Shown piece after piece: positions 1-18,127 of a stretch of 64,000 nucleotides of DNA. Origin of the DNA: Epilithonimonas hominis. Lineage in GTDB: Bacteria > Bacteroidota > Bacteroidia > Flavobacteriales > Weeksellaceae. Positions within the stretch are counted from its first letter, which is position 1. Every line of letters begins with the position of its first letter. The notes under the pieces are model-generated. The model saw only the letters and a program-made list of their open reading frames with translations, did not search any database and was not told where the DNA came from. The stretch covers positions 1 through 64,000 of the forward strand of contig NZ_RJTU01000053.1 in assembly GCF_003730015.1 (NCBI RefSeq). The letters run 5' to 3'. A program made the translations under genes and the position numbers.

Positions 1-671
1 GTTTAACATTTACCAAAGTTATCATTTTTATTTTCCTCCCCAAGGTTTGAGATTGATCCAATAAAAGTTACCATTCAGTGCCCTAAAAAGATTTGATAAA
101 ATAGGTAAACGAACAATTCGAACTTTCAAAAAGAATTTTTTTAAGATTAGTGACTTAAGAAATAATCTATTTCAGTGACTTACAGAATTTACATCAAAAA
201 GTGCATACTACTAAGTTGAATTCGACAGCGCAGTTTACAATACTTTGTTGAGAACATACAAAATATGCTTATGAAATAAATAGGTAAGTAACTATGAGCG
301 GCTACGAACTTTAATCTGTATTTTCAAAGACCATAATGACCGTGAGGAGAAGCTTATTGGAATTGAATTAGCAATAGGTAGATTGAATCAATACAGCCGA
401 GTTTCTTTTACGTGTAGGTTCTTTTCTTTTTCGATGTTGCCATATTTTAATGTAATATATTCTGTCAATAATTACAATACGAGTAGACTTAAGATTTTAT
501 CATTTGTCAATTGACGTCTTTTAATAAAGCTTAAAAATTCATAGTTTCAGTACATAAAATACGAATTTCGGTACATTACGATAGATTGCTATGGCGTAAT
601 ATTTGTACTATTCTCCTCAAAATTATTGTTGATTTACAAAACAATATAAATTATTAATCAAAATCTTAATT
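1..671. other. AT-rich region with no recognisable gene
   Basis: I found no open frame with a protein I recognise on either strand and no RNA gene. Stop codons are dense in all frames. The right end must hold the promoter of the peroxidase operon, but I see no convincing TAnnTTTG box close to its start. A decayed gene here cannot be excluded. Confidence 0.5.
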
Positions 672-1223
672 ATGAGTATTATAGACAAAGTAAAATTGGT
701 TGCCCAGCTAGCAAAGGCGAATTTCAGTGAAGGTATCGATGATGGTTACGACCATTCCACTACATCTGCCGGAAAAAAAGGGTTAAGATCCGGTCGTGTA
801 TCTGAGTTAACTGCGATGGCAAACCTAAAACCCGGAGGTGCAGAAAATCTCAAAACCATAATGGAAATTGCAGGCGGAAATCTGAAAGGTGCAAACAGAG
901 TAGGAACGCTGCATGATCTTCGTATAGTTTTGTTTGATAACGATACCAAGATTCTTTTCTGCACGGCTTACGATGGTGATTGGGATTCTTATATTGATGA
1001 TTTCGCTACAAAAATTCCGCAGCTGATGGACATCATTTTTGGGAATATAGAAGGATGGCCAGGCATAAAAGACCCGAGTGTAAAACAGTTCATTCTAGAC
1101 CATCAGATTACCGCGACAGGTTGGTATGTAGGTGTTCCGCATCTTACGGTGAATGATACAAGGAGATATGATAAAATCATTAAAGGACTGAATAAGGCAA
1201 TTGACGAAGCAAATACAATCTAA
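672..1223 (+). CDS. DyP-associated alpha/beta-domain protein
   Basis: A 183-residue cytoplasmic protein with no signal peptide or membrane segment. The middle carries GTLHDLRIVLFDN followed by DGDWDSYIDDFATKIP. From memory, this pattern is typical of a ferredoxin-like domain found fused to or next to DyP-type peroxidases and catalase-like proteins in other bacteria. Its stop lies only three bases before the DyP peroxidase start, so it is the first gene of a tight operon. The biochemical role is unknown to me. It may be a degenerate haem-binding or partner domain related to the DyP fold. The family link is moderately secure; any function is inference from context. Confidence 0.7.
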   Translation: MSIIDKVKLVAQLAKANFSEGIDDGYDHSTTSAGKKGLRSGRVSELTAMANLKPGGAENLKTIMEIAGGNLKGANRVGTLHDLRIVLFDNDTKILFCTAYDGDWDSYIDDFATKIPQLMDIIFGNIEGWPGIKDPSVKQFILDHQITATGWYVGVPHLTVNDTRRYDKIIKGLNKAIDEANTI

Positions 1224-1226
1224 TCT

Positions 1227-2585
1227 ATGGCACTGGAATTTTTAAAGCGGATTTTTAATCCAAATAAAGTAGAAATTGAGCTGAATGAAATACAGGCCTT
1301 AATTCTCAGAAGCCGACCTATACCATATTTCGGAACAGTGGCTATTATTGAAATCAAAGATGCCGTGGCAGCCAGACAAATGCTCCAAAAACTTTTGCCG
1401 ATTGTGAGTTCTGCGGAAGACTGGCATAAGAATGAAGGCGCATCGCTTACTTTGACATTCACTTATAAAGGTCTAGAAAAAATCGGTGTCCCTCAAGAGT
1501 CGCTTGAGACTTTCCCCGAATCCTTCAAGGAGGGAATGGCAGAACGTTCCCGGTTTCTGTATGACATTGGAGTCAATGACCCTAAAAACTGGGAAAAGGT
1601 TTTTAAAAGATCACATATTCACATCGCAGCGGCAGTTATCGCCAACAATGAAGAGGCGTGGAAAAGCAAGCTGGAGGAATTTCGTTCTGAATTGGCGAAT
1701 AACAGCGGCGTAGAAGTAATAATGAGCCACGATTTCGCAGTATCTGAAGAGGTTAAAAATGTATTCGGATTCAGGGATGGCATCAGTAATCCGGAGATTG
1801 AAGGCAGTGGGATAGATGTGCCGCCCGGATTTGATCGTCCAATTAAAGCAGGCGAATTTATAATGGGCTATCCTGGAGAAGCAGGCTTCATAAAGCCATT
1901 TCCACAACCTGAAGTTTTAGGAAAGAACGGTTCTTTTATGGTTTTCAGAAAGTACCAGAGCCAAGTGGCAGAATTTAATCAATTCGTTAAAGAAAATTCT
2001 TCTTCGCCGGAAGAGGGAGAGCTCTTGGCTGCTAAAATGGTAGGTCGCTGGCGAAGTGGTGCACCTTTGGTTTTAGCTCCCGAAAAGGATGATAAATCGC
2101 TAGGAGATGATATGCAAAAAAACAATGATTTTTCTTTCAAGAATGATGAGTACGGTAAAAAGTGTCCGTTCAGTTCGCATATCCGCAGGATGTACCCAAG
2201 AGATTCCAAATCTTTTGTTTTGGAGGATGAACGTTTGCACAGGATCATCAGAAAAAGTGTAACTTTTGGCGACATTGTTCCGCCGGAGGTAACCAAAAAT
2301 GACGGTAAGGAACGTGGACAGTATTTTATTGGCATTAGTGCCGATGCAATGCGAACACTGGAATTTCTTCAAAAACAATGGGCAAACGATGGTAACGCCC
2401 AAAATCTGGGAACAGAAAAAGATCCTTTGATCGGTGTACAGGACGAAGACGCACTGTTTTCTGTACCTGGAGAACCCCTCATCAAAAGATACCGTGGTTT
2501 GCAGACCTACAACATCGTGAAAGGCGGCGAATATTGTTTTATCCCAAGCATTTCTGCTTTAAAATGGATTAGCGAATTAAAATAA
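1227..2585 (+). CDS. DyP-type haem peroxidase
   Basis: A 452-residue dye-decolourising-type peroxidase. The family oxidises substrates with H2O2 using haem b. The hallmark GxxDG motif is present as GFRDG at residues 181-185, which holds the distal Asp. The proximal haem ligand is most likely His318, in SSHIRRMYPRD, a form typical of the family. There is no Tat or Sec signal, so it should be cytoplasmic, unlike EfeB. It starts three bases after the upstream gene and is followed eleven bases later by a catalase-like gene, which indicates one transcript. The natural substrate is not visible from sequence; the nearby fatty-acid genes suggest lipid-derived peroxides, but this is inference. Confidence 0.9.
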   Translation: MALEFLKRIFNPNKVEIELNEIQALILRSRPIPYFGTVAIIEIKDAVAARQMLQKLLPIVSSAEDWHKNEGASLTLTFTYKGLEKIGVPQESLETFPESFKEGMAERSRFLYDIGVNDPKNWEKVFKRSHIHIAAAVIANNEEAWKSKLEEFRSELANNSGVEVIMSHDFAVSEEVKNVFGFRDGISNPEIEGSGIDVPPGFDRPIKAGEFIMGYPGEAGFIKPFPQPEVLGKNGSFMVFRKYQSQVAEFNQFVKENSSSPEEGELLAAKMVGRWRSGAPLVLAPEKDDKSLGDDMQKNNDFSFKNDEYGKKCPFSSHIRRMYPRDSKSFVLEDERLHRIIRKSVTFGDIVPPEVTKNDGKERGQYFIGISADAMRTLEFLQKQWANDGNAQNLGTEKDPLIGVQDEDALFSVPGEPLIKRYRGLQTYNIVKGGEYCFIPSISALKWISELK

Positions 2586-2596
2586 AAAAAAGCACT

Positions 2597-3733
2597 ATGG
2601 AAGAATACATCAAGTACAGTTACGAAGTGGAAGAAATTCCAGAAAATTTCGATGAGTATATTACCACCATTAATAACGATATCCGCGAATACATCAAAAA
2701 TACGCCAAACCTAAGCAGGGCGACCCATCATACAAGAGATGCGCACGCCAATGGCTATGCAGTGCTGAAAGCAGAGGTTGAAATATTGGATAATCTGCCC
2801 GAAGAACTGGCGCAGGGCATTTATGCGAAACCCGGAAAACACCAGGCAGCAGTTCGCTTTTCCAATGGTTCGTCCAGAGTTTTGCCCGATAAACTAAGCG
2901 GTAATGCACAAGGATTTGCTTTAAAGATTTTTGGGATAGATGGCAAAAAATTATCTCCCGGAGAGGAAGATTCTCCCAATGTTGATTTTAACCTGATTAA
3001 TAATCCGGTGTTTTTCTGTAACTCGGCAGAACATTATGTTTTCATTTCAAAGCTTTTTTTAAAGCTAAATGATTTCTTTGAAAAGGGAGCCTTGGGAAAA
3101 TTGGAATTTGCCACACTTTGGGTCACCGAAAATAAAAAAGCATTTCCAAATTTTGAGGCTTTGAAGGAATTGGGCGCTCTTAAAACTTTTAAAAAAATCC
3201 CTTCAATCAACAGTTTTCTTTATGAATTTTACAGTATGGGAGCGGTACGCCACGGTGATTATATCGCCAAAGTAAGAGTGATCCCAACTGAGCAGACCAC
3301 GAACGCCATCACGGAAAAAGATATTGATCTAGACAGCGCAGAATGGCCGTACAGAAAAGGAATTATCAAAGAAATAGCTCAAAAAAACCTTACGTTTGAG
3401 TTGCAAATACAACTTTGCAAAGACCTGAAAGAAATGCCTGTGAATGACCTTACAAAAGAATGGTCGCAGGAATTATCACCATTCCGTACGGTGGCAAAAA
3501 TCACAATACCAAAACAAACGGTTCCTGAGGATGGTAATTTTGAAATTATGGAAAATCTGTCGTTTACACCGTTCAGAACTATAGAAGAGAATTCACCGAT
3601 TGGAAATTTACAGCGTTCACGACAGTCAGCGTATGTAACATCTTCAACCTCAAGACACGAGCTAAACCACAAAAAACGTAAAGAACCAAAGAATTTGGAG
3701 GAAGCATTCAGTCCGGAGTTTTATCAATTATAA
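2597..3733 (+). CDS. catalase-related haem protein
   Basis: A 378-residue protein of the catalase-like haem-binding superfamily, shorter than a true catalase at about 480 residues or more. Near the N-terminus RDAHANGYAVLKAE carries the likely catalytic His50, and AVRFSNGSSRV then GNAQGFALKIFG match the catalase core. FYSMGAVRHGDYIAKVRV resembles the later core segment. Known relatives include small bacterial catalase-like proteins and catalase-related enzymes that act on fatty-acid hydroperoxides rather than H2O2. It lacks a signal peptide and follows the DyP gene by 11 bases. Which peroxide it uses cannot be told from sequence. Confidence 0.82.
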   Translation: MEEYIKYSYEVEEIPENFDEYITTINNDIREYIKNTPNLSRATHHTRDAHANGYAVLKAEVEILDNLPEELAQGIYAKPGKHQAAVRFSNGSSRVLPDKLSGNAQGFALKIFGIDGKKLSPGEEDSPNVDFNLINNPVFFCNSAEHYVFISKLFLKLNDFFEKGALGKLEFATLWVTENKKAFPNFEALKELGALKTFKKIPSINSFLYEFYSMGAVRHGDYIAKVRVIPTEQTTNAITEKDIDLDSAEWPYRKGIIKEIAQKNLTFELQIQLCKDLKEMPVNDLTKEWSQELSPFRTVAKITIPKQTVPEDGNFEIMENLSFTPFRTIEENSPIGNLQRSRQSAYVTSSTSRHELNHKKRKEPKNLEEAFSPEFYQL

Positions 3734-3795
3734 TTGAAAATGAAGATTCTGAGTCCTAGTTCCGTAAAGTTTATTACCAAAAATCAACCAAAATT

Positions 3796-5601
3796 ATGAG
3801 CAAAATAAAAAATGTAACGGTAGCTGGAAGTGGTGTTTTAGGATTCCAAATTGCTTTTCAAACAGCAATTCACGGATTTGAAACCACGGTTTACGATATC
3901 AGCGATGAAGTGTTGGAAAAGGCGAAAGCAAAGTTCGAGGGCTTGGCCGAAAGTCATAAAAAGGATCTTGGCGCCACCGAAGAACAAATTGCAAAAGCCA
4001 GGGAAAGACTGCACTATTCATCCGATTTGGCATTTGCTGTGAAAGATGCCGATCTTTTGATAGAAGCAGTGCCAGAAGATATTAAAATAAAAACGGAATT
4101 TTATAAGCAACTCTCCGCAATTGCACCGGAGAAAACCATTTTTGTAAGTAATTCATCCACCTTGTTGCCAAGTCAGTTTGCTGAGGTGACAGGAAGACCG
4201 GCTCAATACCTTAACCTGCATTTTGCCAATCAAATATGGTTGCGAAATACGGCGGAAATTATGCCACATCCAGGAACCGACGAAAAAATAACTGAGGAAA
4301 TAGTCGATTTTTCCAAGGCGATAGGGATGGTGCCTGTTTTGGTAAAAAAAGAAGTTCCAGGTTATGTGCTCAATTCTTTATTAAATCCATTTCTGAATGC
4401 CGGAATGCAGCTTTGGATTGGCGATTATGCTACGCCAGAAACCATAGACAAAACCTGGATGCTGGGAACTGGTTCGCCTTACGGACCAATGGCTTTGTAT
4501 GATATTATCGGATTGACGACACCCTACAACATTTACAAACTGCAAGTAGACAAGGGCAAAACAGATGATAAGATTGTGCTAGATAAACTTAAATCAACCT
4601 TCATAGACCAAAATAAACTGGGAATTTCTACTGGCGAAGGCTTTTACAAATATCCAAATCCTTCGTGGCAAAGTCCAGATTTTTTGAAAGTGCCGGAAGC
4701 CGATTTATCTAAAATCAGTATTAAAAATGTTGTGGTGGCTGGAAGTGGCGTTCTCGGTTTTCAGATTGCGGTGCAGTGCGCTTATTTCGGCTATAAAGTC
4801 ACGGTTTATGATGTTAATGATGAAGCTTTAAATAAGGCAAAAAACCGTTTTGATGTCTTGGCTGAAGAATATAAAAACTACCTGAAAGCTGATGAAGAAA
4901 AAATCGAAAATACCAAAAATAATCTCACTTATTCTACAGATTTGAATGCTTCTTTACAGGATGCTGATTTATTGATAGAAGCCGTACCGGAAAGCATCGA
5001 TATCAAAAAAGATTTCTGGGAAAAAGCTTCTGAGCACGCGCCGGAAAAAACCACATTTGCGAGTAACTCATCCACACTTTTGCCGAGCAGATTAAGCACA
5101 TTTACCGATCGTCCGGAAAAATTCATCCATCTACATTTTGCCAATCATATAATGGTTCGCAATACAGCAGAAATAATGGGTTCTGATCAAACCGACCCAA
5201 TAGTTTATAACGAGATTGTAGAGTTTGCAAAATCCATTGCTATGCTACCCGTGGAACTGAGGAAGGAAAAATCAGCCTACGTTCTGGATTCTTTGTTGAT
5301 TCCGCTTTTGGTGGCTGGCCTTGCACTGTGGGCGAATGACGTTGCCGATCCTGCAACAATCGATAAAACCTGGAGAATAGCAACAGGTGCTCCTTTTGGA
5401 CCAATGGCTATTTTAGATTTGAATGGGATGAACACCAATTACAACATCTTAAAAGAAATCCCGGGAGAACTAACACAGAAAATAGCAGAAAAGCTAAAAA
5501 CCGAACTTATCGACAAAGGAAAACTTGGTCAGCAATCCGGCGAAGGTTTTTACAAATATCCTGAACCGGAATGGCAAAGCAAGGATTTTTTGAAAGCTTA
5601 A
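3796..5601 (+). CDS. tandem-duplicated 3-hydroxyacyl-CoA dehydrogenase
   Basis: A 601-residue fusion of two complete 3-hydroxyacyl-CoA dehydrogenase units (about 1-305 and 310-601). Each starts with a Rossmann NAD site, AGSGVLGFQIA, and each contains NSSTLLPS and LHFAN. The catalytic His-Glu pair is kept in both halves with the family's 12-residue spacing: His142/Glu154 and His447/Glu459. Each half ends in GEGFYKYP. There is no enoyl-CoA hydratase domain, so this is not a FadB/FadJ enzyme. The family oxidises 3-hydroxyacyl-CoA or related hydroxy acids with NAD+. It follows the catalase-like gene by 62 bases and converges on oleate hydratase 1. A role in oxidising hydroxylated fatty acids is inference. 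Confidence 0.88.
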   Translation: MSKIKNVTVAGSGVLGFQIAFQTAIHGFETTVYDISDEVLEKAKAKFEGLAESHKKDLGATEEQIAKARERLHYSSDLAFAVKDADLLIEAVPEDIKIKTEFYKQLSAIAPEKTIFVSNSSTLLPSQFAEVTGRPAQYLNLHFANQIWLRNTAEIMPHPGTDEKITEEIVDFSKAIGMVPVLVKKEVPGYVLNSLLNPFLNAGMQLWIGDYATPETIDKTWMLGTGSPYGPMALYDIIGLTTPYNIYKLQVDKGKTDDKIVLDKLKSTFIDQNKLGISTGEGFYKYPNPSWQSPDFLKVPEADLSKISIKNVVVAGSGVLGFQIAVQCAYFGYKVTVYDVNDEALNKAKNRFDVLAEEYKNYLKADEEKIENTKNNLTYSTDLNASLQDADLLIEAVPESIDIKKDFWEKASEHAPEKTTFASNSSTLLPSRLSTFTDRPEKFIHLHFANHIMVRNTAEIMGSDQTDPIVYNEIVEFAKSIAMLPVELRKEKSAYVLDSLLIPLLVAGLALWANDVADPATIDKTWRIATGAPFGPMAILDLNGMNTNYNILKEIPGELTQKIAEKLKTELIDKGKLGQQSGEGFYKYPEPEWQSKDFLKA

Positions 5602-5657
5602 AGTATCCTGAATTCTCATCGAAAACAGTGAAAGAAGCCATAAGTATAAATACCATA

Positions 5658-5690
5658 AAAAACTCAGGATTTTTAAAATCCTGAGTTTTT
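5658..5690. terminator. bidirectional intrinsic terminator
   Basis: A perfect hairpin (ACTCAGGAT paired with ATCCTGAGT) is flanked by A-runs on the left and T-runs on the right. It lies between the convergent dehydrogenase and oleate hydratase genes and can serve both. Confidence 0.85.
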
Positions 5691-5708
5691 CAAGTATAAA
5701 ACAACCTC

Positions 5709-7478
5709 TTATAACAACTTAGCTTCTTTTAAAATCTCTTCAACATAAGTACCTTCTATTTTCTTGATACCATATTTCTCAAGGATTGAAATCAACCAAG
5801 GAAATTCAATTTCATTGAGGTTTTTGTTGTCATTAAGGTGATAGATGGATTTCAGCAGTACCCTGATGTCATATGAAGAAGCAAAAACTTCCGGGACACC
5901 TCTGTCTACATCCAAAAGGGTGTAAACTGCTTCCATTGCTGTACGCACGGAATATTCGGTTGTGAATACGGTGTCTTTTCCAGTTTCGGCAAAATTACCG
6001 ATAAAAGCCAGGTTTACAGAACCCTCTGGAACCACCAATGGGCGGTCTCCCAATGCACGAGGCATAAAGTAAGATGTGATATAAGGCATACGGCAAGGGA
6101 TGCTGTTGGCAGCTTGTGCAATTTCTGCTATTTCATTTTCAGGAACACCAATATGGTATAAAAATTCTTTGCAAAGCTCTATCCCCGTGGCTTCCGTAAT
6201 TTTCTTTTGGATATAATTTCCTGGTTTATGAGAATACAACCCATAAACCCAAACAATTATTTCATTTTTTTTCTGAGCCTTGAAGTGGGGCTGTCTGCTG
6301 ATGGAAAAGCCATACCACCAGTTAGAATCGTTTATTGTGACAGGTCCGCTAGTCACTATTGAACCGCTTCTTGGGTCTTTTTTTGTTATTTTTTCTATAT
6401 ACGGAATCACTTTTTCGTCGAAGAAGGTAATGCTTCCGGAGATTACCCAGTTGGCTTCGGGAATGTTTTTGTAGAACTTTTCGGGTTTTCCAAAGGCATC
6501 ATCCTGGTCTGCCAGATTCTGCCAAAGCTGCCAACTTCCGCCAATGCCGTCTGCAACAGGAGCAGGGTTATGATTGTCACCGTATGTACTGCTTTCGGTA
6601 ATGGAGCCGTTGGTAACAAACACCAGGTCGTTTTCGGTCAGGCTGATGCTTTCTGCATTGCCATCCTTAATATATTCGATTTTCTTCGCTACTTTTTTGC
6701 CGTTTTCATTTTCTACAAGTATGTTCTGAACCTGGCTATCATACTGGAAGGTAACACCGTGGGACTCAAGGTAGCTTACCAACGGACGAATCAGTGATTC
6801 ATATTGGTTGTATTTCGTGAAGCGTAATGAGGACATATCTGCTACGCTGCCAACGTGATGGATGAAACGAAGAACATATCGGCGCATTTCCATCGCACTT
6901 GCCCAAGGTTCGAATGCGAACATCGTAGCCCAGTATGTCCAAAAGTTGGATTGGAAAAATTCTTCTGTAAATACCTGGTCTATCTGTACATCCTGTAGTT
7001 TTTCTTCAGGAAGAAGAACCAGCGCTATAAGTTCGTGGATGGCTTTCTGGGACAGGGTAAGCTTACCATCCGTGGGCAGTCTTTCTCCACGGTTTTCGAT
7101 AACACGGGCGTGGGAAAAGCTAGGGTCTTCTTTATTGAGCCAATAATATTCGTCCAGTACGGAAACGCCTTCCGCTTCTAATGAGGGTATCGAGCGGAAC
7201 AAATCCCAAAGGGTTTCGAAATGTGTTTCCATTTCCCGTCCGCCTCGTATGATGTAGCCTTTCTGCTCATTCCAGATACCGTCCATACTGCCACCGGGTA
7301 AAGCTAATTCTTCCAGAATACGGATTTTGTTTCCTTCCATTTGCGCATCGCGTATCAAAAAAGCTGCGGCGGCCAATGAAGCTAATCCCGAACCGATAAT
7401 TACGGCAGATTTCTGTTCAATATTTGCCGGTTTTTTCGGGCGGGCAAATGCTTCGTAATTCCCATTACTGTAATACAT
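5709..7478 (-). CDS. ohyA: oleate hydratase 1
   Basis: A 589-residue FAD-dependent oleate hydratase (the former myosin-cross-reactive antigen family), about the length of the Staphylococcus aureus enzyme. It adds water across the cis-9 double bond of unsaturated fatty acids to give 10-hydroxy acids. The FAD site is [13 protein letters not shown] near residues 27-39. The catalytic loop RGGREM is intact, with Glu82, and Tyr201 is present; both numbers coincide with the catalytic residues reported for the S. aureus enzyme. It has no signal peptide. It lies 126 bases downstream of mlaD and has its own candidate promoter element, so it may be transcribed both with the Mla genes and alone. Confidence 0.95.
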
Positions 7479-7501
7479 AATTAGAATTTTTTAGTTTATA
7501 A

Positions 7502-7512
7502 TATATGATAAA
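7502..7512 (-). promoter_or_regulatory. shared ohyA upstream element, copy 1
   Basis: On the minus strand the 11-mer TTTATCATATA ends 23 bases before the oleate hydratase 1 start codon. The same 11-mer stands at exactly the same distance before oleate hydratase 2. The downstream leader is also alike (AACTAAAAAA against AACCTAAAAAA). Promoter core or operator role is inferred. Confidence 0.5.
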
Positions 7513-7604
7513 ATAACCTTGTTTTTGTTTAATAAAGTTATACATATTGCTTTCACTTTATATATCCCAAAATTCTAATTGTATGTGCTGATATTCCAAT
7601 GATG

Positions 7605-8603
7605 TTATCTTTGGAGATTCTGTTTTTCGGCTTCCTTTTTCTTTTTTTCCTGTTTGCGGAAGTAACCTCTGAAGAGAAAATTATGCTTCAGAGCCTCCAT
7701 ATTCTGGTTGAAGCCTTCGGTTCCCTTTTCGATATTGTAAAGGCTGTTATTGATGTTTTTTGTAAGAACGGTATCAGTGATAAGGGCATTTATCGGTCCT
7801 TTTCCATTTTCTATATTTTTACTGAATGCCTGCAGGTTTTTACCAACTATGATAAGTTCATTGCTTACTGTATTAAGATTATTGCTGGCGGCATTGACGT
7901 TATTGAAAGTCTGCTTAAGCTGGGACTCAAAATCTTTGTTGGCAAGGAGAAGTCCCGTTGCTCCTTTTCCCTGGCGTGTAGACGTAATGATGGCTTCTGC
8001 AGTACTGCTCAGGTTTTCTATATTTTCCGTGCTTTGGCGTATTTTCAGGATGGATAATTTTAAGTTTTCGGCAAACGACTTGTCATTAATTAATTTTAAA
8101 ATCTGGCTGCTGTCAATTTTATGCACAGTGTTTTTAAGAGATTTGGATATATCCTGTATATTGTTGTTGCTTGCCGATAGCGTGTTGAGTATTTCATCCA
8201 CACCTGGTTTGGTATCTGCCGTGAGATATTCTTTTTCCTGCACTGGTCTGCCCGGCTTACCGTAAGGCAAAATATTGACCACCGCATTGCCGATAATGCC
8301 TTCTGTTCCAATCGAGGCTTTGGCATTATTGTCTATATGCTTTGCAATATCTTTGTCTATAAGCATAATGACCTCTATATCATCCCTTCCGGACAATTTT
8401 ACTGACTTTACAGAACCTGCCTGCATCCCTGAAAATAGCACATTGCTTCCTTCTCTGAGTCCATTGGAGTTTTTGAATCTTGCCCTGAGCTCAAATTTGC
8501 TGGTAAAAATGCCTGAACCGCTGCCGATGTAAAAGAAAACAGCCATCATAAGTATAAACCCCGAAATTACAAATAAGCCGAGCTTGATATTATTTTTATT
8601 CAT
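7605..8603 (-). CDS. mlaD: MlaD-type MCE-domain protein
   Basis: A 332-residue protein with one N-terminal membrane anchor (about residues 8-27). It is followed by an MCE domain (about 36-115, containing NSNGLREGSNVLFSGMQAG) and a long, mostly helical C-terminal part. MCE proteins form hexameric rings or tubes that carry lipids between inner and outer membrane together with a MlaFE ABC transporter. It is longer than E. coli MlaD (183 residues) because of the helical tail, which is common in Bacteroidota. It starts three bases after the mlaF stop, so the two are co-translated. No MlaA, MlaB or MlaC homologue is seen nearby. Confidence 0.9.
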   Translation of the reverse strand: MNKNNIKLGLFVISGFILMMAVFFYIGSGSGIFTSKFELRARFKNSNGLREGSNVLFSGMQAGSVKSVKLSGRDDIEVIMLIDKDIAKHIDNNAKASIGTEGIIGNAVVNILPYGKPGRPVQEKEYLTADTKPGVDEILNTLSASNNNIQDISKSLKNTVHKIDSSQILKLINDKSFAENLKLSILKIRQSTENIENLSSTAEAIITSTRQGKGATGLLLANKDFESQLKQTFNNVNAASNNLNTVSNELIIVGKNLQAFSKNIENGKGPINALITDTVLTKNINNSLYNIEKGTEGFNQNMEALKHNFLFRGYFRKQEKKKKEAEKQNLQR

Positions 8604-8606
8604 ATT

Positions 8607-9374
8607 TTAATCAAAAAATTGTTTAATATTTTCGTCATCAGAACTTTCAAATTCCTGATAAGTACCTTGTGCGTAGCATTTTCCGTCAAGCAGCAAGACT
8701 ACTTTGTCAGCCGTATTTTTCACACAGTTCATATCGTGTGAGATAATTATAGATGATGTTTTGTATTTGTTATGTATATCCATTATGAGGCTGTCAATTT
8801 CTTTTGCTGTTACCGTATCAAGTCCGGTGGTAGGTTCATCATAAAGGATGATTTCCGGCTTAAGGATGACAGTACGTGCCAGAGCTATTCTTTTCAGCAT
8901 CCCTCCCGACAATTCGGATGGCATAAGGTCTACGGTATGTTTAAGCCCCACACTATCGAGTGCTTCTTCAACCCGTGCGTCAATTTCATCCTGCTTCAGC
9001 CGGAACCACCGTCTTCTTAAAGGGAATTCCAGATTTTCGCGGATGGTCATAGAATCATAGATGGCATTTCCCTGAAAAAGAAAACCTATTTTTGAGCGTG
9101 CCTTATCCAGCTCTTGATTTTCCAGTTGGACAATATCCTGCCCGGAAATCATTATCCTACCGCTATCAGGTGTTAAAAGCCGGACGATACATTTGATAAG
9201 CACAGATTTTCCCGTGCCTGATTTTCCGAGAACTACAACATTTTCGTTCTTATCGACCGTTAGGTTAAAACCGTTAAGCACTTTTTTTTCACCAAAGCTT
9301 TTATAAATATCTTCAATGACGATGGCCGGTCCATTGTCATTATTGCCGTTTGCTGTTGTTTTTGTTTCCGCCAT
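8607..9374 (-). CDS. mlaF: MlaF-type lipid ABC transporter ATPase
   Basis: A 255-residue ABC ATPase. All nucleotide-binding elements are present: Walker A GKSGTGKS (50-57), signature LSGGM (155-159), Walker B IILYDE (175-180) and the switch His213. LSGGMLKRIALAR is typical of the MlaF/Ttg2A group. It should power the MlaE permease and load or unload lipid through the MlaD ring at the inner membrane. It lies nine bases after mlaE and three before mlaD. The substrate of this copy is unknown; the flanking oleate hydratases and lipase point to fatty acids or hydroxylated phospholipids. Confidence 0.92.
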   Translation of the reverse strand: MAETKTTANGNNDNGPAIVIEDIYKSFGEKKVLNGFNLTVDKNENVVVLGKSGTGKSVLIKCIVRLLTPDSGRIMISGQDIVQLENQELDKARSKIGFLFQGNAIYDSMTIRENLEFPLRRRWFRLKQDEIDARVEEALDSVGLKHTVDLMPSELSGGMLKRIALARTVILKPEIILYDEPTTGLDTVTAKEIDSLIMDIHNKYKTSSIIISHDMNCVKNTADKVVLLLDGKCYAQGTYQEFESSDDENIKQFFD

Positions 9375-9383
9375 AATGATGAT

Positions 9384-10151
9384 TTAATTATATCCGAGAA
9401 TGCCGGTTATCTGTACCGCAATCAGGTCCAAAACGAAGATAAGGATAGAGGAGAGCACGACCGCTGAATTGGCGGCGTTCCCCACGCCCCGTGTTCCTTT
9501 TACTGCATTATAGCCTTTATAGGCACCCACGATTCCCACTGCAAAACCGAAAAAAAAGCTTTTGATAAAAGCTGGTATGATGTCACTGAAATCCAAGGAG
9601 TCAAAAACCTGTGAATAGAAAAGTGACAGGCTAGTTGTACCGCCAATGTTAACACCTATCCAGGCACCATATAGTGAAATGGCATCCGCCAGTATGATAA
9701 GTACGGGAAGCATAAATGTTGTAGCCAGGACACGTGTGGCAACAAGGTATTTAAAAGGATGTGTACCGCTTACTTCCATTGCGTCTATCTGTTCGGTAAC
9801 CCGCATCGAGCCCAGCTCTGCCCCGATGCTACTGGCAATTTTACCTGCAAAGATGAGAGCGGCGATTACGGGTGCTATTTCACGGATGATGGCAATGCCT
9901 ACCATTACAGGCAGCTGGGATTCCACACCATAGCGTACGAGGCTTGGCCGCAGCTGCATCGTAAGAACCAAGCCGATGATAAAGCCTGTCATGGCAATAA
10001 GCCCCAAAGATTTGTAACCTATGAGATAGCATTGTGCGAGCAGTTCCTTTATTTCATATGGTGGACGGAAACCTAATAGAAAGTAATTTTTGGTAAACTG
10101 TGTGATATTGCCTGTTTCCTGTAAAAAACTACGTATTTTAATCATTAACAA
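9384..10151 (-). CDS. mlaE: MlaE-type lipid ABC transporter permease
   Basis: A 255-residue integral membrane protein with about five to six hydrophobic segments and the conserved MlaE/YrbE region GAELGSMRVTEQIDAMEVSG. It forms the inner-membrane channel of the Mla lipid transporter. It starts 30 bases after the alpha/beta hydrolase stop and is the first of three closely packed mla genes. Length and motifs fit the family well. The order permease-ATPase-MCE is the usual one. Confidence 0.92.
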   Translation of the reverse strand: MLMIKIRSFLQETGNITQFTKNYFLLGFRPPYEIKELLAQCYLIGYKSLGLIAMTGFIIGLVLTMQLRPSLVRYGVESQLPVMVGIAIIREIAPVIAALIFAGKIASSIGAELGSMRVTEQIDAMEVSGTHPFKYLVATRVLATTFMLPVLIILADAISLYGAWIGVNIGGTTSLSLFYSQVFDSLDFSDIIPAFIKSFFFGFAVGIVGAYKGYNAVKGTRGVGNAANSAVVLSSILIFVLDLIAVQITGILGYN

Positions 10152-10181
10152 ATTATTTTTTTAAATTAAAATATTTTTAGT

Positions 10182-11141
10182 CTACTTTTCCAATTGCTGT
10201 ATTTTTTTATTGAGCCAATCCCTTATATCTTCATATACATATTCTTTAATATCCTCATTAAGTATTTCGTGCCGCATAGCAGGATAAATTTTAGTTTTAA
10301 CATCTGTAAAACCATCTTTTTGCATTTGTGTTACCGTTTTTTCAATACCTTTTCCGAAGTCTCCTATCGGATCATCAGCTCCGCTTACAAAAAGAAAAGG
10401 AAATTCCTTTGGTAATTTTTCTGCCCATTTTCTTTCCGTTGCCTGTTGGTTTAGAGAAACTAATGCGTAAAAACCATTATTGGTAAAAGGTACTCCGCAT
10501 AGGCTGTCCCGGCAAAATGATTCCCGGTTGGATTTGCTGAGGCTCAGCCAACTGGTAAGGTCGCCATCTTTCTCGCCTTTAAAATGTTGATTATTAATTT
10601 TTGAAAAAGTTTGGTTGATGAATTTGCTCCGGTGTTTTGGAGCAATAATATTGTTGATGGACAGGAAAAATTTAGCCAAACCGATTCCGTTGATTTTTCC
10701 TCCCGTTCCCACGATGACAGCGCCTTTAAAATCAGCTTCCTGATTCTGAAGTAAGCATCTTGCAATGAAAGACCCCATAGAATGCCCCAGTAAAAAATGA
10801 GAAATGTTAGGATAGTTGTTTTCTAAATATGCTGCCATCGTTGCGGCATCGTCTATCAGTTGCTGCTTGGGATTTTCTTCTTGAAAATAACCTAGTTCTT
10901 CCTGGTTTTCCGCCGTTTTTCCGTGTCCGAGATGGTCATATAATAGAACTGCAAAACCTTTGGTCGCCAGATATTCCGCAAAATCTTTATAACGACCGCT
11001 ATGCTCCTGCATCCCGTGTAGTATAAGGACAGTAGCCTTTGGAGGTTCATTTATTGGTTCGAATAATTCATAAAAAAGATTGTGCGTACCTGAGTTGGCA
11101 ATTTTCTTCCTCTTTATATATCCTGATGTGTGTTTTGCCAT
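10182..11141 (-). CDS. alpha/beta hydrolase, monoacylglycerol lipase-like
   Basis: A 319-residue alpha/beta hydrolase of the serine aminopeptidase S33/monoglyceride lipase type. LHGMQEHSGRY is the oxyanion-hole motif characteristic of monoacylglycerol lipases and lysophospholipases. The nucleophile is Ser121 in GHSMGS; the likely partners are Asp257 (in GADDP) and His291. There is no signal peptide, so it is probably cytoplasmic. It would release free fatty acids from monoglycerides or lysolipids. It lies between oleate hydratase 2 and mlaE, 30 bases from the latter, so it may supply or recycle the fatty acids handled by its neighbours. The exact substrate is inferred. Confidence 0.85.
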   Translation of the reverse strand: MAKHTSGYIKRKKIANSGTHNLFYELFEPINEPPKATVLILHGMQEHSGRYKDFAEYLATKGFAVLLYDHLGHGKTAENQEELGYFQEENPKQQLIDDAATMAAYLENNYPNISHFLLGHSMGSFIARCLLQNQEADFKGAVIVGTGGKINGIGLAKFFLSINNIIAPKHRSKFINQTFSKINNQHFKGEKDGDLTSWLSLSKSNRESFCRDSLCGVPFTNNGFYALVSLNQQATERKWAEKLPKEFPFLFVSGADDPIGDFGKGIEKTVTQMQKDGFTDVKTKIYPAMRHEILNEDIKEYVYEDIRDWLNKKIQQLEK

Positions 11142-11168
11142 AGTCGGTTGGTTTTGTACAAAAATAAA

Positions 11169-11201
11169 TATTCTGCCCTTGACAAAAGCAAGAGCAGAAT
11201 A
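11169..11201 (-). terminator. hairpin between ohyA2 and the hydrolase
   Basis: Arms of about 13 bases (TATTCTGCCCTTG and CAAGAGCAGAATA) pair with one mismatch. On the minus strand the hairpin is followed by a T-rich stretch broken by A. It is likely a weak terminator or processing site between two parts of the operon. Confidence 0.45.
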
Positions 11202-11309
11202 AAGTTAGATAAATTGGTTATTATAGACAATTTCTTTTATAGATTAAAGAGAGATACGCCTTTAGCAAGAAAGAACTTGGACAAAGTTAAAAGCAACACT
11301 TTTTTATTT

Positions 11310-12899
11310 TTAATTTCTGTACGCGGTATGAATGGCTTTTGCCAACACGTCTGGTTTTTTCCAGTGTTCTGTTACTGGTGTTACTTTTTTATCGAGACCG
11401 AGTAGGGTATATACCGCGATGCGTGCTGCACGAACCGAATATTCTTCTGTGAATACCATATCTTCCGGTATTTCTACAAACTGACTAATCATTGCTAGGT
11501 TGGTGCTGCCTTCAGGAACAACTGCAGGGCGGTCTGCTTTAGCTCTTGGCTGAAACAAAGCATCGATGTAAGGCATCATACACGGAATAACATTGATAAC
11601 GCTGTCTTTTATTTCCTGTTCGTGTTTTTCAAAATGCAAATGATGAATCAACTCCGTCAAAATTTCTTCGCCCGTGCAATCAATCATCGGCTTTTTCACA
11701 TAATCTCCCACTGCATCTGGATATAATCCGTAGCCCCAAAGAATAGTAGTATCATCGCCTTGCGCTTTGAAATGCGGTTGTGCAGCCACCACAATTGACA
11801 TCCGCCACGATGAATCTTTAAATGTCATCAAAGCTCCGCTACCGGGTTTGTTTCCAGTGTATTCTTCAATAAGTTTCAGAAATTTATTTCCTTTGAATGT
11901 TGGTGTGAAAGAATACCATTTTGTTTCGTCAGGTTTGGTAAAGAACGGGTCGGGATTACCCAACTTGCCGGGTTTCTTGTTGGCAATTTTACGCCATAAT
12001 GCAAAACTTGGCGGATTTGACGGCAAGTATTTTGCAGGCGTGTTATAATCGCCGTTATTAGAATTGTCTGTAATACATCCGTTGGTAAAGAATACCAAAT
12101 CGCCTTCATTCACGGTTATTTTCTCTGTGTTTCCTTCTGCATTGATGCATTCTATTTCCGTTACGGTAATGCCATCATTATCGGCAAAATCCAAATCGGT
12201 AACGGTTTTTCTTAATGAAAAGTCCACTTTGTGCTGATCCAGAAATGCCTTCAACGGTAAGATAACGGATTCATATTGGTTGTATGGTGTTCTGGTAACG
12301 CCTTCTAATGTTTCAATACGTGAAAATTCCAACAGCATACGTTTCATATAGCGTTGAAATTCAAAAATACTGCTCCATTCCTGCCAGGCGAAAGTGGTTT
12401 GCCACATATACCAGAAGTTGGTTGTAAAAAAATGGTCGTCAAACCAATCACGAATGGTAATGTTGTCTAAATCATTTTCATCGGCAAAAAACAATTTCAC
12501 AAATTTCATCCTGTCCTGAGTGTTGAAACCCATATCCGTTACGGGTAAAATGTTTCCGTTCTTGTCAATCAACCGCGCTTTTGCATTTGTCGGATTTGCG
12601 TGGTCAAATGCCAGAATTTCGTCTTTTACTGAAATGTTCGGGACATCCAGAGAAGGGATACGGGATGTTAATTCCCAAAAATTTTCATAGGTTTCTTCGT
12701 TGAGCATACGCCCGCCACGACAGATGAAACCTTTTTCTTTAGATCCTGCACCATCGTTGCTACCTCCCAAAATCGGCAGGGCTTCAATGATGTGTATGTT
12801 TTCGCCTTTAAATCCAGCATCTTCCAAAAGATAAACTGCTGCGGCAAGACTTGCCAATCCGCCTCCGATGAAATACGCATGTTTGTTCGAATTGCTCAT
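11310..12899 (-). CDS. oleate hydratase 2 (variant catalytic loop)
   Basis: A 529-residue paralogue of oleate hydratase 1, about 60 residues shorter. The FAD site [12 protein letters not shown] is at 10-21 and the active-site Tyr is kept (Tyr184, in FQRYMKRM). In the catalytic loop, however, RGGREM is replaced by RGGRML, so the acidic residue equivalent to Glu82 is missing at that position. Some characterised hydratases, I believe including the Rhodococcus monomeric type, have Met there too, so this is a subtype rather than proof of inactivity. It probably has a different chain length or double-bond preference. It follows the AraC gene by 98 bases and carries the same upstream 11-mer as oleate hydratase 1. 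Confidence 0.9.
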   Translation of the reverse strand: MSNSNKHAYFIGGGLASLAAAVYLLEDAGFKGENIHIIEALPILGGSNDGAGSKEKGFICRGGRMLNEETYENFWELTSRIPSLDVPNISVKDEILAFDHANPTNAKARLIDKNGNILPVTDMGFNTQDRMKFVKLFFADENDLDNITIRDWFDDHFFTTNFWYMWQTTFAWQEWSSIFEFQRYMKRMLLEFSRIETLEGVTRTPYNQYESVILPLKAFLDQHKVDFSLRKTVTDLDFADNDGITVTEIECINAEGNTEKITVNEGDLVFFTNGCITDNSNNGDYNTPAKYLPSNPPSFALWRKIANKKPGKLGNPDPFFTKPDETKWYSFTPTFKGNKFLKLIEEYTGNKPGSGALMTFKDSSWRMSIVVAAQPHFKAQGDDTTILWGYGLYPDAVGDYVKKPMIDCTGEEILTELIHHLHFEKHEQEIKDSVINVIPCMMPYIDALFQPRAKADRPAVVPEGSTNLAMISQFVEIPEDMVFTEEYSVRAARIAVYTLLGLDKKVTPVTEHWKKPDVLAKAIHTAYRN

Positions 12900-12922
12900 A
12901 TGATATTTTTTTAGGTTATTTT

Positions 12923-12949
12923 TATATGATAAAGGTATTGATATACCTT
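12923..12949 (-). promoter_or_regulatory. shared ohyA element (copy 2) plus inverted repeat
   Basis: TTTATCATATA (12923-12933, minus strand) ends 23 bases before the start codon, as in oleate hydratase 1. Overlapping it is a perfect 7-base inverted repeat with a 4-base spacer (AAGGTAT and ATACCTT, 12932-12949). It is a candidate operator for the adjacent AraC regulator. Confidence 0.5.
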
Positions 12950-12997
12950 AATTCCTTGGTATCCCTAAATTCGAAAATCATATACGGAATTTCTTTT

Positions 12998-13873
12998 TTA
13001 AAAATGCTGTTGTCTTCGGTACTTTTGGGGCGATATTGACGCATGCTTTTTAAAGAAACGGCCGAATGCAGAGGTAGAATTAAAGCCTGTTTCAAATGCA
13101 ATCTGAGAAATATTTTTTTCTGGATAGCCGAGCAGAACGCATACTTCTTTTAATAAGGCCTCATCAATAATCTGATGTGGCGTTTTGCCGGTCGCTTTTT
13201 TTACAATCAGAATAAGATATTTGTTGGTAATGAATAGCTTGTCAGCATAGTATTGTACGTCCTTATGCTGCAAAATATTTTCTTTTACCAATTCATTGAA
13301 TTTAAAAAAAATATGATTGTTATCCTGTGGAGTAGGATATGCGTTGTCTTTTCTGTCTTCATCAGTTAGGACTGCAACTTCCAATAAAATATTAATAATA
13401 ATAGTACGAACAATATCTTCTGTAAAACGACCATTCCTCGTGGTCTGCTGTTGAAGATAATCCAATAAATTGATTAAGTGCGTGCTACTTGATTCGTCGG
13501 AAATTACTACGTTAAAGCTATTTTTATTGAATAGAGACAGATTCTCGATAAAAAATGGATTAGAAATGTTCCTGAGCAGGAAATTCTTTTCAAAGAATAG
13601 AACCTTCATACGGAAATCTTTGCTGGTATTTACAAATTTTATAATTGTTGATGGAGCAGATATCAGGAATCCGTTTTGGGATATCTTGTAATGCTGATTA
13701 TCAATTTCTAAATCTATACTACCAGAAACACAGATGCAGAATGCATAAAAATCCATTCGGAAGAGTCTTTTTGGGAATTCAAAAATGAGTTTTCCTGACG
13801 ATATAAAGTAAGGTTCCTCACAATGTACGTGATAAAAAGATAATATTTCTTTAATACTTTCGTAAGCTTTCAT
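12998..13873 (-). CDS. AraC-family transcriptional regulator
   Basis: A 291-residue regulator. The N-terminal half looks like a cupin-type ligand-binding domain; the last hundred residues form the double helix-turn-helix of the AraC/XylS family, ending in FGRFFKKHASISPQKYRRQ. It lies directly upstream of oleate hydratase 2 on the same strand and downstream of the ABC efflux operon, 59 bases after the permease stop. Sensing fatty acids or their products and controlling the hydratase/Mla genes is the natural guess but is not shown. It may be read through from the MarR-controlled operon, because I see no clear promoter box of its own. Confidence 0.88.
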   Translation of the reverse strand: MKAYESIKEILSFYHVHCEEPYFISSGKLIFEFPKRLFRMDFYAFCICVSGSIDLEIDNQHYKISQNGFLISAPSTIIKFVNTSKDFRMKVLFFEKNFLLRNISNPFFIENLSLFNKNSFNVVISDESSSTHLINLLDYLQQQTTRNGRFTEDIVRTIIINILLEVAVLTDEDRKDNAYPTPQDNNHIFFKFNELVKENILQHKDVQYYADKLFITNKYLILIVKKATGKTPHQIIDEALLKEVCVLLGYPEKNISQIAFETGFNSTSAFGRFFKKHASISPQKYRRQQHF

Positions 13874-13932
13874 AGCATCTTATTTAATAGATTTATGCAG
13901 GCCGATATAATTTTTGGCTTATATTTATCTCG

Positions 13933-15093
13933 CTACATTTCCTCTCTTTTAATCTTTCGGACTTTGTAAAATAAAACACTATAACTGGCAATGGCGTTTA
14001 CTGTTCCTATGATTATCATTTTTATAACATAGGGATAGGTGAGGTCTACAGCGCCTTTTTCTATGATAAGTATTCTAAATGCAGGCAGGAAATGTGTAAG
14101 CGGGATGATATTTGCAATGTACTGAACCCAAGCCGGCATTTGGCTGAGCGGCCAGGTAAATCCTGACAGGATAAAGCTGGGTGTGGCAATAACCATAAGG
14201 ATTTCCGTAGCTTTCAGCTGGTTCGGAACAAGGATACTTACCAAAATTCCTATAAAGCAGACCGAGATTACAAAAACGCCCGCTATAAGGGTAAGCGGAA
14301 AAATGTTTTCATAAAAAGGAATTCTGAACCACTTGGTAAAACCCCAGTACATCAGCCATATCCCGAAGCTCATTATGAGATAAGGCACGATTTTAACCAG
14401 CATCAGCATAAATGCAGAACGGCTTTTATGTACCAGATATTTGAAAGTGCCGTTTTCAAACTCGGAAGCAAAAGAAAGAGCAAGCCCCAATAACAATACC
14501 TGCTGAAGCACAGTAGCCAAAACACCTGGCCACAAAAAATACATATAGTTGGTGCTTCTATTGTTCTTTTTTATAAACGTAGTTTTAAATGGCTCATACT
14601 GGCTCATTAGCAAATTTTCCGGAACTCCTTGTTTACGTAAGGTTTCGACCTGTGTTCCTGCTTTGAGGGTTCCTAATACCAGCTGAAGGGCTGATGAAGA
14701 ATAATTTGCCGTCAATACATTTGCGGTATTGATGATGGTAGTAACTTCAGGATATCGTTTTGTCAGCACATCTTTCTCAAAATCTTTTGGGATAATAACG
14801 ACGCAGGTTGCATCTTTCTCAATCATCAAACGATTGAGATTTGTCTCGTCAAACTGCAGCCTTGCAACAGACAAAACTTCGTTGTCATTCATCATTTCTA
14901 TGGCTTTCCGGCTGAGTGCGCTTTGGTCATAATCTACCACTATGATTGGTAAATCTGTCACTTTCCCTTTGCTATACACATATCCCAACAAAACACCGTA
15001 CATCAAAGGAGCCCCAATAAACAAAATTCTGAGAACTTTGTTGCTCCAGAATAAGCCGAACTCCCGTTTGATCAGATTGAGAAATATTTTCAT
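13933..15093 (-). CDS. ABC-2 type transporter permease
   Basis: A 386-residue ABC-2 membrane protein of the YbhR/YhhJ type. It has one N-terminal transmembrane segment (about 20-42), a large extracytoplasmic domain (about 45-185) and five further segments up to the C-terminus. It should export drugs or other small molecules together with the HlyD protein and TolC channel encoded just upstream (stop-to-start spacing of two bases). No ATP-binding subunit gene lies in this operon, so the ATPase must come from elsewhere or the system works differently. The stop lies 59 bases before the AraC gene. Confidence 0.88.
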   Translation of the reverse strand: MKIFLNLIKREFGLFWSNKVLRILFIGAPLMYGVLLGYVYSKGKVTDLPIIVVDYDQSALSRKAIEMMNDNEVLSVARLQFDETNLNRLMIEKDATCVVIIPKDFEKDVLTKRYPEVTTIINTANVLTANYSSSALQLVLGTLKAGTQVETLRKQGVPENLLMSQYEPFKTTFIKKNNRSTNYMYFLWPGVLATVLQQVLLLGLALSFASEFENGTFKYLVHKSRSAFMLMLVKIVPYLIMSFGIWLMYWGFTKWFRIPFYENIFPLTLIAGVFVISVCFIGILVSILVPNQLKATEILMVIATPSFILSGFTWPLSQMPAWVQYIANIIPLTHFLPAFRILIIEKGAVDLTYPYVIKMIIIGTVNAIASYSVLFYKVRKIKREEM

Positions 15094-15095
15094 TA

Positions 15096-16052
15096 TTAAG
15101 GTTTTAGCGTTACTGTTGTTTTGCTTAGGATATCGTTTGCTTGTTGGATGTTAATAGGGTCTATCAATATTTCATACAAAGCGTCCTGCACTTCATAATC
15201 AGGATATGCTGTAGCAATATTAGCATAGGCACCTATTTGTTTTATATTTCTGATTTTCCCTTTGATATCCCGATTCTTGTAAGGTATATGCACATTGATT
15301 TCTTTTCCTTGTGCATAATTTGCCAATTGGCTTTCAGGAATAGTAAAGCGGAAATAAATGGAATTATTAAGAGAACCTTTGAAAAGCGTATATCCTGGTA
15401 GTGCCAGTTCCCCCAGCTTCAATGTGATCGATTCTATTTTCATATCCTGTGGTGCAATGATATACCTTTCTTTCTCGGCAACCTGTACTTCTTCCAAAGC
15501 TCCTTGAGCAAGGTCTTTTTGTCCCAACGCCATTGTTTGCTGTTCTATGCGGACCCCGTTTTTAACATCGGCAATTTCTGCATCTACGGCTATCATTTGT
15601 GATTTGGCTCCCTGATACTTTGCGAATACTTCATCATATTGCTGTTGCGGAACCAATGAATCCTTTACCATTGCGTTCATTCTTGCCAGGGATTTTTTTG
15701 CAAACTCATATTGCTCTACCAAAGCGGATTTCTTGGCATAGAGCTGTGCCAACTGATTGGCAGTAGCACCATGTACACTCATCTCATATTGTGCCTGAGC
15801 AGATTTTACCGCACCTTGTGCCTGTGATTTTTTTGCGTCTACTTCCGGGATTTCCAATATCGCCAATGTATCTCCCTTTTTTACAAGAGCTCCCTCGCTG
15901 ATCAGAATTTTATCTATCCTGCCTGCTATTTTGCCTACTACTGCAATCTCTTCCCGCTCGGTCTTTCCCTGGATGGTTTGTGATACTTTCGGTTTATTCT
16001 CACAAGAAGCTAAAATGCCTGCAATGCTTAGTATGTAAATAATTTTTTTCAT
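15096..16052 (-). CDS. HlyD-family periplasmic adaptor lipoprotein
   Basis: A 318-residue membrane-fusion protein of the HlyD/YbhG type. The N-terminus is a lipoprotein signal (lipobox LASC near residue 17), so it is probably anchored in a membrane facing the periplasm. A biotinyl-lipoyl-like segment (GRIDKILISEGALVKKGDTL) flanks a long coiled coil and is followed by a beta-barrel part. It would link the ABC-2 permease to the TolC-like channel. It lies five bases after the TolC gene and two before the permease gene. Confidence 0.9.
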   Translation of the reverse strand: MKKIIYILSIAGILASCENKPKVSQTIQGKTEREEIAVVGKIAGRIDKILISEGALVKKGDTLAILEIPEVDAKKSQAQGAVKSAQAQYEMSVHGATANQLAQLYAKKSALVEQYEFAKKSLARMNAMVKDSLVPQQQYDEVFAKYQGAKSQMIAVDAEIADVKNGVRIEQQTMALGQKDLAQGALEEVQVAEKERYIIAPQDMKIESITLKLGELALPGYTLFKGSLNNSIYFRFTIPESQLANYAQGKEINVHIPYKNRDIKGKIRNIKQIGAYANIATAYPDYEVQDALYEILIDPINIQQANDILSKTTVTLKP

Positions 16053-16057
16053 TTTGC

Positions 16058-17892: not shown

Positions 17893-17910
17893 ATAAAATT
17901 TATTATTGAA

Positions 17911-17947
17911 CAAAGTTAATCAAACAATAGTTGTACCAACAACTATT
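17911..17947 (-). promoter_or_regulatory. MarR operon promoter and operator
   Basis: On the minus strand TAACTTTG (17918-17911) fits the Bacteroidetes -7 box TAnnTTTG. A perfect 9-base inverted repeat, AATAGTTGT and ACAACTATT with a 4-base spacer (17926-17947), covers the -33 position. That is the expected geometry for repression by a MarR dimer. The predicted leader is about 14 bases. Confidence 0.78.
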
Positions 17948-18127
17948 TATGTTAAATTTTTTTTAATCTTAATATCATTGAGATGACATAAGCTTTTGAT
18001 TTAATTATTGTTAAGATAATTTGTGATTAGTCAAAATGAACTATGGCTAAAAAAAAGCTGTTCATAATTTCGATAGATATCTACGGAAGATGATTGCATT
18101 AGTAGGACTAGACATCATATTTATAAA
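17948..18127. other. intergenic region, nothing recognised
   Basis: This stretch lies between the MarR operator and the terminator of the antiporter gene. I see no open frame or structured RNA in it. Confidence 0.5.

Follow-up and report, generated by a model that had tools for sequence, protein, structure and literature searches.

We report that the first 64,000 nucleotides of a contig from Epilithonimonas hominis (NZ_RJTU01000053.1; 105 kb, from a genome of 2.92 Mb), called here the window, carry a mobile island in which two oleate hydratases of different types (OHY1 and OHY2) are arranged with a lipase-like hydrolase, a dehydrogenase, an MCE/Mla-type transporter (mlaEFD), an efflux set and a peroxidase operon. 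The island, which extends from about 458 to 18072 as judged from the matches of relatives to the window, has spread horizontally between genera. It is a mosaic whose units, at least three in number, were gained or lost separately, namely efflux/AraC/hydratase, lipase/mlaEFD/hydratase and DyP/catalase-related/dehydrogenase. Within this mosaic, mlaEFD and OHY1 form one block. We lean towards the view that this modular assembly, passed on horizontally, serves tolerance to unsaturated fatty acids, which would be achieved by their hydration, oxidation and removal.

The association of the transporter with OHY1 is evident from a survey of 320 genomes of the bacterial family (genomes and loci are given by G and L numbers), in which 95 carry some oleate hydratase, 15 the OHY2 type and nine the OHY1 type. 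The nine OHY1 copies, which are 98-100% identical, come from two genera, with four genomes in that of the window and five in another, which includes Chryseobacterium indologenes J31 (G582). In every one of these nine loci, mlaE, mlaF and mlaD lie directly before OHY1. Up to four candidates per genome were scored in this hydratase survey (up to eight for the dehydrogenase and three in one other search), and therefore misses are possible. In four relatives (G068, G115, G602 and G673), AraC, OHY2 and the lipase are followed by the dehydrogenase with nothing in between, such that mlaEFD and OHY1 are both missing, and in G017 the lipase is likewise followed by the dehydrogenase without the four genes. 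Because the loci of these five relatives have neither component, mlaEFD and OHY1 can be recognized as a single 4.5-kb block, whose breakpoints fall at 5626/10126 relative to G068, G115 and G017 (5599 in G017) and at 5626/10124 relative to G602 and G673. The genome of G068 is very close to that of the window, and thus the block is the main difference between them at this locus. The ratio of non-synonymous to synonymous substitution (dN/dS) for mlaE, mlaF, mlaD and OHY1 is 0-0.24 across the comparisons made, which reveals selection against amino-acid change and argues that all four genes have been kept working.

An additional mlaE is present in exactly the four of 23 genus genomes that carry OHY1, whereas a housekeeping mlaE, 28-36% identical to the island gene, occurs in all 23. 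The island mlaE clusters in a phylogenetic tree with four Mucilaginibacter sequences (100/94 support), distant from the housekeeping gene. The candidate explanation that the island mlaEFD is simply the housekeeping copy was rejected on these two grounds. Further mlaEFD sets, distinct from both the housekeeping and the island kinds (MlaE 54-59% identical), were observed at L153 (G119 C5), L154 (G054 C1) and L155 (G111 C9), and the first of these clusters with Flavobacteriaceae in the mlaE tree.

The gene order of the island recurs in eight other genomes from two genera. Measured gene by gene, DNA identity to the window is 89-99.9% in G582, G132, G119 and G135, whereas a 3-kb stretch around the housekeeping mlaEF genes is only 74-76% identical to the window genome in G119, G135 and G132 (98.4% in G068). 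Recurrence at such identities indicates that the order reflects more than chance. The left flanks of the island are of three kinds among seven genomes, and G017, from a third genus, holds a part of the island with neither hydratase (91-98% identity). In addition, the locus is recombining, as seen from mosaic synonymous divergence (dS) and from separate losses of the dehydrogenase. A preliminary description of the window, made from its letters alone, had envisaged one dedicated system for lipid release, hydration, oxidation, peroxide removal and transport. Its parts do occur together in related genomes rather than being scattered at random, but a mosaic takes the place of the single system, the peroxide step is unproved, and the hydroxyacyl-coenzyme A (CoA) dehydrogenase is better read otherwise.

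The plus strand carries, in order, HYP183, the DyP peroxidase, the catalase-related protein and the dehydrogenase. The minus-strand order is MarR, TolC, HlyD, ABC2, AraC, OHY2, lipase, MlaE, MlaF, MlaD and OHY1. The features of the locus are as follows.

672-1223, plus strand: HYP183, an open frame of 183 amino acids of no known family, first gene of the DyP/catalase-related operon
1227-2585, plus strand: DyP-type peroxidase (PF21105, PF20628; TIGR01413 110.8 bits, cut-off 100.5)
2597-3733, plus strand: catalase-related haem protein, 378 amino acids (PF00199 31.4 bits, cut-off 25)
3796-5601, plus strand: tandem (two-repeat) 3HCDH-family dehydrogenase, proposed 10-hydroxy-fatty-acid dehydrogenase (PF02737 and PF00725, each twice)
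5656-5692, no strand assigned: shared terminator, faced by gene groups on both sides (17-pair hairpin, -24.6 kcal/mol, z -7.0)
5627-10125, minus strand: mlaE-mlaF-mlaD-OHY1 block, all there or all missing (breakpoints against relatives' loci)
5709-7478, minus strand: OHY1, full-length oleate hydratase of the S. aureus/Lactobacillus type (PF06100 705 bits; NF010584 876 bits)
7605-8603, minus strand: MlaD/MCE-domain protein with a long C-terminal extension (PF02470 at residues 38-113 of 332)
8607-9374, minus strand: MlaF-like ABC ATPase (PF00005; top NCBIfam model MlaF NF008809, under its cut-off)
9384-10151, minus strand: MlaE-like permease (PF02405 231 bits)
10182-11141, minus strand: monoacylglycerol-lipase-like alpha/beta hydrolase (PF12146, Hydrolase_4, 150 bits)
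11169-11201, minus strand: terminator-like hairpin between OHY2 and lipase, with a T-rich tail (-18.4 kcal/mol, z -4.2)
11310-12899, minus strand: OHY2, oleate hydratase of the Rhodococcus (HFam 3) type (PF06100 678 bits; NF010584 734 bits)
12998-13873, minus strand: AraC-family regulator (PF12833)
13933-15093, minus strand: ABC-2 type permease of the efflux set (PF12698 138 bits)
15096-16052, minus strand: HlyD-type membrane fusion protein (PF16576)
16058-17440, minus strand: TolC-type outer membrane efflux protein (PF02321)
17437-17913, minus strand: MarR-family regulator (PF01047)

The genes named in the preliminary description are all open frames in the order and orientation it gave, with families above Pfam cut-offs, and the terminator it placed between the facing groups corresponds to the hairpin at 5656-5692. 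It ended the unit at 13873, and in doing so missed the efflux pump, whose genes, likewise on the minus strand, extend as far as 17913. The minus-strand genes are consecutive as described, but a single transcription unit is improbable because a strong T-tailed hairpin (11169-11201) separates OHY2 from the lipase. We therefore rejected the notion of one minus-strand operon. Just beyond the right edge of the island is a Na+/H+ exchanger in two frames (18159-18944 and 18960-19766, minus strand) that match opposite ends of PF00999. Two island copies show either decay or sequencing error, with AraC split into two frames in L206 (G548) and TolC likewise in L209 (G673).

Both hydratases pass the NF010584 cut-off of 567 bits, and each resembles a different characterized enzyme. 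OHY1 aligns from the first to the last residue with OhyA chains from Staphylococcus aureus and related organisms (830 bits) and from Lactobacillus. It retains the catalytic Glu of the RGGREM motif (as RGGREME), and is 69% identical to the Pediococcus enzyme and approximately 69% identical to Lactiplantibacillus plasmid copies. The alignment covers residues 550-591 of S. aureus OhyA, the C-terminal region that binds the membrane in that species (PMC10847778), and thus OHY1, as an S. aureus-type enzyme with this region, should act on acids lying in the membrane. Unlike ohyA, whose neighbours are described in PMC11669549 as regulators such as norG, OHY1 belongs to a Gram-negative host and is linked to the genes of an MCE transporter. 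The top solved match of OHY2 is the Rhodococcus chain 5odo (484 bits), in an alignment that does not reach the C-terminal tail. OHY2 has a Met in place of the catalytic Glu, and the resulting RGGRM motif is found in both proteins, the Rhodococcus erythropolis (HFam 3) enzyme being active despite this replacement (PMC8403116). It differs from that enzyme in its setting, on an island beside a second hydratase of another type. The remaining oleate hydratases of the bacterial family constitute a third type that is 42-45% identical to OHY1, and a copy of this usual type accompanies OHY1 and OHY2 in G573, G582, G596, G548 and G549.

The block's transporter genes encode an MlaE permease, an MlaD/MCE domain and an ABC ATPase together, which by Pfam identifies an MCE/Mla transporter like MlaFEDB. 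In contrast to the Escherichia coli Mla proteins, all three subunits score under the NCBIfam equivalog cut-offs (MlaD 59.8 versus 135; MlaE 181 versus 315, and 194.7 versus 212 for TIGR00056; MlaF 171 versus 441). The MlaA, MlaB and MlaC models had no match among the window proteins scanned, and the whole genome was not searched for MlaA or MlaC. Among loci elsewhere that contain mlaEFD of the island type, no conserved partner was supported; the commonest neighbour cluster other than mlaEFD occurs in 15/79 loci and is UspA-like by look alone.

The tandem dehydrogenase had been labelled a hydroxyacyl-CoA dehydrogenase, and is better read as acting on free hydroxy fatty acids. Its nearest solved chain is the diketoreductase 4dyd (314 bits, compared with approximately 160 for mitochondrial HADH), and the FadB, FadJ and PaaH model cut-offs were not reached. 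Neighbourhood evidence came from a 148-genome family sample, in which 83 genomes matched PF06100 and 29 did so at more than 500 bits; these 29 are counted as oleate-hydratase genomes, and the other matches are short FAD-domain hits of about 19-29 bits. A single-domain relative of the dehydrogenase lies directly 3' of the oleate hydratase on the same strand in 11 of the 29, and the tandem form faces the hydratase in four. Genomes with an oleate hydratase are enriched for close relatives of both the lipase (20/29) and the dehydrogenase (17/25), in Fisher tests that treat genomes as independent, which phylogenetically they are not. For these tests, relatives of the dehydrogenase were counted above 300 bits (25 genomes) and those of the catalase-related protein above 600 bits (nine genomes). 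The order AraC-hydratase-dehydrogenase-lipase in four genomes of one genus (L047, L144, L145 and L147) shows that there is more than one arrangement in which the lipase and the dehydrogenase accompany the hydratase. The second repeat of the enzyme (4704-5598, plus strand) reads YVLDSLL where the first reads YVLNSLL, and we take the Asn replaced by Asp to be a residue usually conserved in the 3HCDH family.

Given this neighbourhood and distant family kinship, the tandem enzyme may be a 10-hydroxy-fatty-acid (secondary alcohol) dehydrogenase rather than a beta-oxidation enzyme. There is precedent in Nocardia cholesterolicum, where 10-hydroxystearate is oxidized by an enzyme that carries the annotation 3-hydroxybutyryl-CoA dehydrogenase, and where no 10-ketostearate formed once its gene was knocked out (PMC7101164). 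This organism likewise pairs two unlike oleate hydratases with such a dehydrogenase. However, the gene numbers given in PMC7101164 are far apart, whereas the window has one island with transporters, and the likeness drawn between the dehydrogenases is one of annotation. Chryseobacterium strain DS5 (Flavobacterium/Chryseobacterium), from the bacterial family of the window, converts oleate to 10-hydroxy- and 10-ketostearate (PMC7471780), which is the reaction sequence proposed for the island. According to PMC7471780, DS5 had no genome sequence.

The lipase-like hydrolase scores approximately 60 bits against monoglyceride lipases and 122 bits against another alpha/beta hydrolase, and is under the cut-offs of all NCBIfam hydrolase models. 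Entry (or loss) of the block altered an A-T hairpin at the 3' end of its gene. In the empty locus L040 this hairpin folds at -13.6 kcal/mol (z -3.0; 2/200 shuffles as good), and in the window it is much weaker (-7.6 kcal/mol, z -0.4). We infer, rather than observe, a lipase terminator at L040, because the hairpin is built of A-T pairs and its T-run is on the dehydrogenase side. The efflux set MarR-TolC-HlyD-ABC2 is part of the island in the window and seven relatives (G132, G573, G582, G068, G115, G602 and G673), and is missing from six (G119, G135, G596, G548, G549 and G017). In the five of these that carry OHY1, the space between OHY2 and the lipase holds a gene for a 210-amino-acid outer membrane beta-barrel (OMP_b-brl_2; L038:10417-11046, minus strand; same place in L039, L205, L206 and L207). 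A more distant TolC-HlyD-ABC2 set precedes hydratase and dehydrogenase in G027. Separately, such a set was observed directly before a single-domain dehydrogenase in L173 and L174 (G143 and G134), with no oleate hydratase nearby. AraC is directly upstream of the oleate hydratase in 22 of the 29 oleate-hydratase genomes.

The remaining unit comprises HYP183, for which profile scans of the window proteins gave no Pfam or NCBIfam match, the DyP peroxidase (nearest solved chain 8re3, 'Peroxidase, putative', 505 bits) and the catalase-related protein. In the latter, H50, N135, R342 and Y346 are invariant among 19 homologues; H50 and N135 are presumably the distal His/Asn of catalases, and R342 and Y346 the proximal R-x-x-x-Y positions. 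HYP183 is always directly before DyP in the examined loci that contain the trio. A place for these genes in the pathway, as the removal of peroxides proposed earlier, is unproved because they also occur without the hydratase. The trio lacks an oleate hydratase in G017 and G009, has a second copy, away from the hydratase, in G115, and in G051 lies with the tandem dehydrogenase 250 kb from the hydratase. The chances are about even that the trio is a peroxide-stress unit with no relation to the genes opposite. Set against this alternative, the trio adjoins the hydratase in all 13 island genomes with OHY2 and the lipase, window included, and relatives of the tandem dehydrogenase pair with oleate hydratase elsewhere. 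A link between trio and hydratase is also conceivable because a redox-linked regulator influences ohyA in S. aureus (PMC11669549). We treat the trio as a passenger or a loosely linked stress unit. A DDE transposase piece lies directly after the hydratase-less operon of G009 (L163:10186-10812, plus strand).

If the favoured explanation of fatty-acid tolerance is correct, the parts might operate as follows. Free unsaturated fatty acids, arriving from the surroundings or from lipase action, would be hydrated to 10-hydroxy acids by OHY2, which has no membrane-binding tail, and by OHY1 at the membrane. The 3HCDH-family enzyme would then oxidize the 10-hydroxy acid to the 10-keto acid. MlaEFD is predicted to shift substrate or product between membranes, the TolC-HlyD-ABC2 set would move substrate or product out of the cell, and the AraC and MarR proteins could switch the two operons. 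All of these steps, whether of catalysis or of transport, are predictions from gene families and their arrangement, as are the way in which the lipids would travel and the view that the island serves tolerance instead of nutrition. In favour of this explanation, Flavobacterium psychrophilum in fish mucus raises its oleate hydratases along with its efflux pumps (PMC9723704).

Several observations weigh against this explanation. The efflux set is missing from 5/9 OHY1 loci, and so is the dehydrogenase (G132, G119, G596, G548 and G549). ABC2 permease homologues occur in 70/148 family genomes, mostly away from oleate hydratase, and being this common they make the efflux-hydratase adjacency only suggestive. 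The dehydrogenase matches NF006143, '3-hydroxyacyl-CoA dehydrogenase', at 785 bits over two repeats (cut-off 312). Island-type mlaEFD is near an oleate hydratase in only one of the 80 best mlaE matches (some on short contigs), and that one is the island's own J31 copy. It is beside the hydratase in 0/6 loci from other families of the phylum, and MCE genes are beside one in 0/6 plasmid regions, drawn from 202 plasmid records with incomplete gene tables. Because the nine joined mlaEFD-OHY1 copies are nearly identical, they represent one origin.

This single origin, in a locus that is plainly recombining, would be expected if mlaEFD and the hydratase were passive hot-spot neighbours, joined by chance in one donor and hitch-hiking since. 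We judge this distinctly unlikely, given that the block is intact in all nine loci while its neighbours come and go, that each block gene has a low dN/dS, and that the junction puts mlaE 30 nucleotides past the lipase end. An unlikely alternative of another kind is nutrient scavenging, in which the lipase and MlaEFD would bring in lipids of host or plant origin, hydration and oxidation would ready the acyl chains for beta-oxidation, and the tandem enzyme would be a genuine 3-hydroxyacyl-CoA dehydrogenase. The close-set run of lipase and mlaEFD genes is in keeping with import, as is the NF006143 match with such an enzyme, and fish components raise beta-oxidation genes in F. psychrophilum (PMC9723704). 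However, thiolase, acyl-CoA ligase and enoyl-CoA hydratase were not found among the scanned open reading frames of positions 1-20000, the diketoreductase scores twice as high as HADH, and efflux genes adjoin the hydratase in 8/14 island loci, window included. A tentative and rather doubtful elaboration of the tolerance explanation is that MlaEFD and OHY1 are a coupled hydrate-and-transport machine. In such a machine, MlaEFD would draw unsaturated acids from the envelope or return hydroxylated ones to it, exchanging them with membrane-bound OHY1, and the beta-barrel might be the outer partner in the five copies that encode it.

Every part of the island is known singly. In the open-licence literature, we found no published work that joins oleate hydratase with MlaD, and co-mentions of oleate hydratase and MCE have unrelated titles; title searches there likewise yielded no report of the arrangement with a 3-hydroxyacyl-CoA dehydrogenase, or of lipase and efflux genes in such a cluster. 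The step from 10-hydroxy- to 10-ketostearate has long been known in Chryseobacterium strain DS5, and the dehydrogenase that adjoins oleate hydratase is a concrete candidate gene for it. Little is known of what MCE transporters do naturally in Bacteroidota, or oleate hydratases in Gram-negative bacteria. Near relatives that differ in having or lacking mlaEFD-OHY1 are natural pairs in which the use of an MCE transporter to a fatty-acid enzyme can be examined cleanly. If the coupled machine proved real, it would mean that an MCE transporter is devoted to the modification of fatty acids and has spread from genus to genus as a detoxification cassette.

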